Source of the DNA: a virus
Strand: one strand, 5' to 3'
Virus record (IMG/VR): IMGVR_UViG_3300042503_000189
Coordinates: 1-24,364 of that record
DNA: 24,364 nucleotides
Part shown: one piece after another, positions 18,178-19,204 of the stretch
Numbering within the stretch: the stretch's first letter is position 1
How the letters are laid out: every line of letters begins with the position of its first letter
Position numbers and translations under genes: made by a program
Notes under the pieces: model-generated
What the model saw: the letters and a program-made list of their open reading frames with translations, nothing else
Told to the model about the DNA's origin: nothing
Database searches by the model: none

Positions 18178-18206
18178 GCATCAGGTGTTAGCGTCCTGAT
18201 TTTTTA
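18178..18206 (+). terminator. Intrinsic terminator after the Cro-like gene
   Basis: ATCAGG (18180-18185) pairs with CCTGAT (18195-18200) around a 9-base loop, followed by TTTTT. It begins 5 bases after the stop codon and insulates the Cro-like gene from the downstream RNA region. Confidence 0.82.
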
Positions 18207-18260: not shown

Positions 18261-18314
18261 AGTGTTTAATTGTCTAATGGAAATCGTGCTTTATCGAAGC
18301 TCACTTTACTTTTT

Positions 18315-18330
18315 TTTAAGATAGTTTTAT
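18315..18330 (+). promoter_or_regulatory. Operator-like motif site 2 with -10-like box
   Basis: TTTAAGATAGTTTTAT matches site 1 at 14 of 16 positions and contains TAAGAT (18317-18322). A start near 18329 would produce the structured RNA that follows and the replication operon. No good -35 box is present (TCGAAG at the right spacing). Confidence 0.55.
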
Positions 18331-18342
18331 AGTTTGTACATC

Positions 18343-18458
18343 CCTTGGCAGGGGTGATAATTCCAACAAGGCTTCACATGAATACGCAGCGAGTGTTGGC
18401 TCGTCCTGCCAGATTCCCTTAAAAAAGGAATTGCGTGTTCAGGTGAAGCCTTTTTTTT
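18343..18458 (+). ncRNA. Structured leader RNA or small RNA with terminator-like stem
   Basis: The main stem pairs GGCTTCACATGAATACGC (18370-18387) with GCGTGTTCAGGTGAAGCC (18433-18450): 17 of 18 positions pair, including one G-T, followed by eight T (18451-18458), so it can act as an intrinsic terminator. The 45-base interior carries two further hairpins, CGAG/CTCG (18390-18403) and ATTCC/GGAAT (18413-18431). Upstream TGGCAGG (18346-18352) is the exact complement of CCTGCCA (18405-18411), and CCAAC (18363-18367) of GTTGG (18395-18399); these two nest and would form a pseudoknot or competing fold with the main stem. No frame is present. It ends 12 bases before the replication gene, so it is either a small RNA or an attenuator. 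Confidence 0.72.
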
Positions 18459-18469
18459 AAAGGTTAGTT

Positions 18470-19204
18470 ATGCACTATTATCAATTCAATATCGGTGACT
18501 ACGCTAGCCACACACGATACCTTACCCCCATGCAAGACTTGATTTACAGGCGATTGTTAGACCTGTATTACTTGCATGAAAAACCTATCCCACAAGAAAA
18601 CCCCTCAATAATTATTGGTCTTAACGACTGTTCAACGGACGTTGAACGAGTGCTTAACGACTACTTTATTTTGACCGAAAAAGGTTGGATAAATAAGAGA
18701 GCAGACGAGCAAATAGCTGAGTATAAAAGCAAACAAAAGTTTGCATCAGCCGCAGGAAAGAAAAGTGCAGAGGTCAGGAAAGCAAGTAAAGATGCGGTTC
18801 TTGAACGACCGTTGAACGAGCGTACAACGAGTGTGCAACTAACCAATAACCATAAACCATTAACCATTAAACAAGAACCAAATAAACTACATACGCCTGA
18901 CGGCGTTTTGCAATCAGTATGGGATGATTTTGTTCAGCAAAGAAAAGCAAAGAAAGCCGCAATAACGGAAACCGCTTTAAAAGGCATAGAGCGTGAAGCA
19001 AGAAAAGCTAATATTTCTTTGAATGACGCTTTGCAAGAAATTTGCGCTAGAGGTTGGACGGGATTTAAAGCTGAATGGGTACTAAAAGACCAATCCAAGA
19101 AAACAGAGCATCAAATGCGGCAGGATGCTACAGCTAGAGTTTTATTTGGCGAACAATCTGCTACGGAGGTGTTTTATGAAAACAATACCAAACTCTTGGG
19201 TTGA
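18470..19204 (+). CDS. Replication initiator-like protein with DUF1376 domain
   Basis: Product of 244 residues. Residues 1-90 are a DUF1376 (YdaU-type) domain: MHYYQFNIGDYASHTRYLTP, then MQDLIYRRLLDLYYLHEKPI and KGWINKRADEQIAEY. A basic, low-complexity linker follows (about 90-145), then a helical C-terminal domain with VWDDFVQQRKAKKAAITETA and GFKAEWVLKD, typical of phage replication proteins that bind origin DNA and a helicase loader. AAAGG precedes the ATG. It is the first gene after the structured RNA and overlaps the next gene by 29 bases, fitting an initiator/loader pair like lambda O and P. DNA-binding sites inside the gene were not recognised. Confidence 0.82.
   Translation: MHYYQFNIGDYASHTRYLTPMQDLIYRRLLDLYYLHEKPIPQENPSIIIGLNDCSTDVERVLNDYFILTEKGWINKRADEQIAEYKSKQKFASAAGKKSAEVRKASKDAVLERPLNERTTSVQLTNNHKPLTIKQEPNKLHTPDGVLQSVWDDFVQQRKAKKAAITETALKGIEREARKANISLNDALQEICARGWTGFKAEWVLKDQSKKTEHQMRQDATARVLFGEQSATEVFYENNTKLLG

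Follow-up and report, generated by a model that had tools for sequence, protein, structure and literature searches.

What kind of element fills the interval immediately upstream of the DUF1376 replication-type gene in the viral DNA studied here (the window, the 24,364 nucleotides of IMG/VR virus record IMGVR_UViG_3300042503_000189), and what does it do for the gene behind it? A preliminary description of the sequence had pointed to a structured RNA able to form a pseudoknot, with a terminator-like stem at its end and no recognised place among the named RNA classes, and had suggested either a phage small RNA or an attenuator setting the expression of replication genes. We find that an RNA of ∼115 nt on the plus strand (18339–18458) is one copy of a structured family that is genuine, widespread in phages, and apparently undescribed. 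Its placement strongly indicates a cis-acting function in the 5′ leader, and attenuation would be the likeliest mechanism.

The locus begins with a sigma-70-type promoter (18305–18333, plus strand; TTTACT, 17 bp, and TATAGT). The end of its −10 box lies 7 bases upstream of the foot of a 5′ hairpin, P0, as modelled. The motif noticed earlier as common to this site and the promoter of the Cro-like gene overlies this promoter, the −10 box there being TATAGT. P0 (18339–18356) pairs 18339–18344 with 18351–18356 around the six-base loop UUGGCA (18345–18350) and has two extra pairs upstream of its modelled foot in the window; the transcript is predicted to start at P0 or a few bases from it. The preliminary description had overlooked this hairpin, the loop of which (TTGGCA in the DNA) is half of the first pseudoknot. 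A separate terminator-like hairpin with a T run lies at 18180–18205, right behind the Cro-like gene, and separates that gene from the transcription unit of the leader.

Downstream of P0, all of the pairings proposed earlier are present. Pseudoknot 1 joins the loop strand alpha, UUGGCA(GG) (18345–18352), to alpha′, CCUGCCAG (18405–18412), and includes the complement of TGGCAGG (18346–18352) and CCTGCCA (18405–18411) that had been pointed out. Pseudoknot 2 joins beta′, CCAACA (18363–18368), to beta (18394–18399), the loop of the inner hairpin P3 (18389–18404; GCGAG-UGUUGG-CUCGU), and extends the CCAAC (18363–18367)/GTTGG (18395–18399) match. The main stem, P2 (18370–18387/18433–18450), comprises 18 positions and 17 pairs as claimed, with one A·G mismatch and one G·U, and encloses P3, alpha′, and a second hairpin, P4 (18413–18431; AUUCC…GGAAU). 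It is followed at 18451–18458 by the reported eight T, a U-tract that gives the element the shape of an intrinsic terminator. A spacer with the Shine-Dalgarno-like sequence AAAGG (18459–18469) then leads to the start codon, at 18470, of the DUF1376 gene (18470–19204; Pfam PF07120, E = 2e-18), which forms the transcription unit behind the leader and thus stands where the preliminary description had placed it; relatives of this gene carry the annotation “primosomal protein.” The strand order is P0 (loop alpha), beta′, the 5′ strand of P2, P3 (loop beta), alpha′, P4, the 3′ strand of P2, U-tract, Shine-Dalgarno sequence, and start codon.

Pattern scans and a covariance model (R1) together gathered at least 214 copies of this RNA, 179 of them with distinct cores; the model replaced an initial loose descriptor search that gave many false positives. 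The copies come from viral contigs, four complete phage records, and one Burkholderiales genome. Among the complete phage records are those of Pseudomonas phage AH02, a cultured lytic phage of Pseudomonas koreensis (PMC8567786) whose copy has its U-tract at 29.63 kb, ahead of gene 51, and of two Leptolyngbya phages, and one copy lies in the uncultured myovirus record MW202520.1. In the first two model searches, no member scored below 57 bits, a value given by a copy truncated at the edge of its contig, and the best match outside the family had 34 bits; in two later searches, with 163 matches, the only ones below 57 bits were a 45-bit second copy on contig L319 and a 27-bit minus-strand match, which was excluded from the family set. 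The Burkholderiales member was the only one in 399 genomes of that group; the plasmids searched held no copies, and 16 sequence matches from a pattern scan of genome contigs included no member by the covariance model. The larger set was partly selected for alpha, alpha′, and six T by the search patterns. Loci recruited through the DUF1376 protein alone are free of this bias; they contain diverged copies with other sequences and the same pairings, and these show the same features as the pattern-found set.

None of the Rfam 15 covariance models matched the window or the divergent copies at its gathering score, and a permissive search of the window returned only chance-level matches (E = 0.73 or worse), so the suggestion that the RNA lies outside the named classes holds for Rfam 15. 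The literature searched, a 2017 motif survey being outside its scope, yielded no description of this RNA.

Folding of the window RNA as a single strand gives −51 kcal/mol, against −32.7 ± 3.8 for shuffled sequences (z = −4.9; 0 of 200 shuffles as low). The comparative evidence rests on an alignment of 50 distinct copies that was fitted to P0, P2, P3, and P4 only, with beta left unmodelled. Across P0, beta, P2, P3, and P4, 96.1% of cells are paired, compared with 72.6% in shuffles, and the whole structure accumulates 392 double-sided changes against 113 in shuffles, a number reached by none of 500 shuffles; slid versions of the structure give 28–76. For alpha together with P0, the corresponding values are 98.9% paired and 24 double changes against 5.3. 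Every helix that had been proposed covaries in homologs, including those added to the terminator stem, and the homologs are not reduced to a bare terminator stem; the covariation of the added helices rules out a chance ordinary terminator.

Taken individually, P0 is paired in 99.5% of cells, with covariants such as UCCC/GGGA, UCAC/GUGA, GUGC/GCAC, and ACGC/GCGU. The whole of its six-base, UUGGCG-like loop pairs with alpha′: 1072 of 1074 alpha cells are paired over the 179 distinct copies, and both sides change at 3 of the 6 positions (e.g., CG/CG, UC/GA, CA/UG, AA/UU). In the P0 loop, UUG stays constant where compensated changes with the partner bases would be possible, and this constancy, together with the fit of UUGR to a YUNR U-turn, suggests some contact beyond self-pairing. 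The P3 loop, likewise over its whole length, pairs with the strand upstream of the main stem; 99% of beta cells are paired even though the helix was unmodelled, and single positions show as many as five types of pair. With P3 picked without reference to beta, an upstream match of at least 6 bp is found in 91% of copies; exchanging the loops among copies gives 14%. P3 itself, in which some copies carry a decoy UGCCAG, covaries and is paired in 100% of cells, and in P2 both sides change at 16 of the 17 modelled pairs, with 98.9% of cells paired. P4 is present in all copies with a variable loop length; its count of 73% paired is an underestimate because its register differs between subtypes.

The composition of the pairs identifies the folding molecule. 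Across P0, P2, P3, and beta, G·U cells outnumber A·C cells 119 to 7, and in alpha 27 to 1; the molecule that folds is therefore plus-strand RNA, and on these counts both a minus-strand RNA and a DNA cruciform or origin were rejected. Minus-strand matches to the model score 18–26 bits where the plus strand of the same loci scores 83–102, as weak echoes of the palindrome.

Placement of the RNA is as regular as its structure. The best sigma-70 −10 box ends 6–9 bases before the modelled P0 foot in 149 of the 179 copies (mode, 7), and a −10 box lies within 4–9 bases in 47 of 50 copies, compared with 25% in shuffled flanks; transcription should therefore start at the P0 foot or within a few bases of it. 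The U-tract has 6–9 U in 179 of 179 distinct copies, and at least 7 in those that the DUF1376 protein alone had brought up. The start codon follows 8–16 bases past the U-tract in 149 of the 169 distinct copies that have a recognised gene. All of these elements, from the promoter through the structured leader and the G+C-containing stem with its U-tract to the coding start, lie on one strand. From the two spacings it follows that the RNA is the entire 5′ leader, and since a second promoter would not fit into the 8–16 bases that follow the U-tract, the gene would depend on readthrough. No promoter can be made out at the usual spacing in AH02 or the Leptolyngbya phages, and in these the RNA may therefore lie inside a longer transcript. 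In four loci (L001, L002, L007, and L087), a CACCG…CGGTG-like inverted repeat, likely a repressor operator, sits between the −35 and −10 boxes upstream of the RNA.

The genes behind the leader fall into 31 unrelated clusters, which argues for generic expression control. DUF1376 is the commonest, with a cluster of 91 of the 168 proteins, and the others include homing endonucleases (HNH/NUMOD4 and GIY-YIG), a ParB-like protein, a helicase-methylase, ERF, and Rha/antirepressor. This range rules out a replication-specific function. The attenuator idea of the preliminary description thus stands in outline, the element filling the leader from promoter to ribosome-binding site in nearly all members, and loses its tie to replication genes.

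Most phage records carry a single copy. Four contigs (L118, L141, L321, and L319) have two, and in L118 and L141 the layout is RNA-gene-RNA-DUF1376, the inserted gene and the DUF1376 gene each having its own copy, suggesting that the inserted genes travel with the leader or duplicate it. In two comparisons (L126 and L136 with L007, and L146 with L019), near-identical promoter regions are followed by different RNA subtypes; the leader therefore appears to have been swapped as a cassette. A different element occupies L163 (4034–4139) and L166 (2401–2502), with CTTGGCGGG and CCCGCCAAG around a long terminator-like stem and without P0; in L163, a Betaproteobacteria-1 RNA (RF02932) lies ∼70 bases downstream of it.

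Several known RNAs share parts of this architecture. In the IncI/IncL RepZ-type leader (ColIb-P9), the leader of a replication gene has a hairpin whose loop, UUGGCG, pairs with CGCCAA further downstream; this pseudoknot acts on translation beside the Shine-Dalgarno sequence, in a system that also includes a leader peptide and an antisense RNA. In contrast, the partner strand in the new RNA lies inside the leader, alpha′ lying 58 bases before the start codon in the window, and a terminator stem comes after it. No leader peptide is conserved: a candidate start (AAGG-AUG inside P2) occurs in 26 of 50 copies, where the frame often stops after four codons, and leader-peptide control was rejected accordingly. 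The strand order also matches the P1-P2-P3-P1′-P4-P2′ order of HDV-like ribozymes, which likewise have a nested double pseudoknot and a P1 of ∼7 bp; but in 49 of 50 copies the lone base of J4/2 is G instead of the catalytic C, the P2 stem extends over 18 positions, and the P3 loop finds its partner on the 5′ side of P2. An HDV-like self-cleaving ribozyme was therefore rejected. The family also resembles intrinsic-terminator attenuators, with which it shares the succession of promoter, structured leader, stem plus U-tract, Shine-Dalgarno sequence, and start codon. It differs from these in having no conserved nested antiterminator helix of the classic kind, the putative competing element being the double loop pseudoknot, and we regard it as a new RNA family among the 5′-leader attenuators.

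A further RNA occupies the same position in sister phages. Many DUF1376 relatives without the new RNA have another structured leader directly upstream of the start codon, int-alpA-like by eye, and the int-alpA RNA (RF02996) scored above its gathering score in 4 of 15 tested loci (L014, L024, L060, and L075). At least two classes of RNA that are unrelated to each other thus occur in this slot. Like the new RNA, int-alpA has a loop able to pair downstream (by eye in L014), but its sequence and helix order are different, with a three-way junction and 71 positions, and the copies seen here mostly have no U-tract. The RF02996 model matched the window RNA not even at E ≤ 5 and none of the new-family members tested (window and divergent copies), being found only in sister loci without the new RNA. 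Among the int-alpA-like leaders upstream of DUF1376 in L013–L080 (e.g., L024, 4910–5000), a loop CGUUAC pairs by eye with a downstream GUAACG, and the last hairpin, AACC…GGUU, holds the Shine-Dalgarno sequence; such a leader looks like a translational switch. Eight other loci (L057, L058, L059, L062, L065, L067, L027, and L028) have more leaders upstream of DUF1376, of other sequence and apparently structured.

Our preferred reading, held with moderate confidence, is that the element is a portable, cis-acting phage 5′-leader attenuator of ∼110–120 nt with a terminated product of ∼115 nt. Transcription would begin at the P0 foot or a few bases away, and the leader RNA would span from about that point to just before the Shine-Dalgarno sequence. 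As alpha′ emerged, the P0 loop would pair with it and the P3 loop would pair back to beta′, so that a core of two pseudoknots would close around the 5′ strand of P2. Because transcription reaches the 3′ strand of P2 only after alpha′ and beta, its 5′ partner would first sit inside a closed loop, which the 18-position stem would have to wrap more than once; P2 formation should be slow, because it takes ∼1.5 helical turns on a strand held inside the loop closed by alpha and beta. Once the 3′ strand had emerged, the long stem before the U-tract would end transcription and release the ∼115-nt RNA. A fraction of polymerases would continue into the gene, and any factor that strengthens or loosens the alpha/beta core would determine how large this fraction is.

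The folding energies, which are nearest-neighbour values that cannot score pseudoknots, are consistent with such a sequence. With the RNA extended only to alpha′, the alpha helix belongs to the minimum-energy structure of 150 of the 179 copies, and in 42 of 50 copies the combination of alpha and beta is more favourable than that of P0 and P3, by a mean of 3.3 kcal/mol. The complete RNA prefers P0, P2, P3, and P4. Alpha and beta would thus be favoured before P2 completes, and the terminator fold would dominate thereafter; the two could also coexist as a pseudoknot with P2, and since all helices are compatible in one fold, the structure does not require a switch. A terminator scan did not call the window site, because the loop is far longer than the scan allows. 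With nearly all of the loop bases paired, neither a regulator nor a ligand pocket can be made out. More tentatively, and with real doubt, we picture the RNA as a topological timer in phages of Pseudomonadota and cyanobacteria: the two hairpin loops would pair completely before the terminator stem and trap the 5′ strand of P2, core stability would choose between small RNA and gene, and this family and int-alpA would be interchangeable in the slot.

Alternatively, function might reside in the terminated RNA itself, as a stable phage small RNA that acts in trans or as a protein-binding RNA, with leaky termination feeding the gene in a layout like that of type III toxin-antitoxin loci. Such an RNA would be expected to have the promoter, compact pseudoknots, and terminator of its own that are seen here, and the invariant UUG could be its point of contact. 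An independent RNA gene would not be expected, however, to stand always before a gene and at a constant 8–16 bases from the start codon, with unrelated genes behind it and one copy per gene in two contigs, and we consider this improbable. A true type III toxin-antitoxin system, with tandem RNA repeats and a conserved toxin gene, is ruled out by the single-copy RNA and the unrelated downstream genes. Less probable still is a leader that mainly protects the 5′ end of the mRNA or tunes ribosome access, its U-tract being a translation enhancer and no terminator. A stable 5′ hairpin is a known hindrance to 5′-end-dependent decay, transcripts of this family are expected to open with such a hairpin or only a few bases away from it, and a U-rich stretch beside a Shine-Dalgarno sequence can aid translation; but a simple hairpin would suffice for protection, whereas here two loop pairings are conserved and the 18-bp stem runs straight into the U-tract, in the shape of a terminator.

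We think it very unlikely that the RNA is a put-like cis antiterminator, which would bind RNA polymerase while nascent and carry it through terminators including its own. Both RNAs open early phage transcripts, and the near-promoter site and cis-only design, with presumed cis action on transcription, resemble HK022 putL (PMC9378689). Yet put RNA consists of two stem-loops in ∼70 nt without an integrated terminator (PMC9378689) and has no loop pseudoknots of the present kind, an architecture that the family does not have, and most of the phage records here carry one copy rather than one per early operon. To a DNA-level element (replication origin or operator) acting through single-strand hairpins we assign next to no probability: the RNA adjoins a replication gene in the window, but the excess of G·U over A·C, the fixed positions of promoter, U-tract, and start codon, and the many copies before non-replication genes speak against it.

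As a cis-acting leader attenuator or otherwise, this is a common phage RNA that is absent from current RNA and gene annotation, with 179 distinct copies in cultured phages of Pseudomonas and Leptolyngbya and in environmental ones. As whole 5′ leaders before many kinds of gene, its copies probably serve the general control of phage gene expression. The presence of int-alpA, a known orphan class, in the same slot gives that RNA, too, a testable role as a leader, and phage AH02 opens both questions to the bench.
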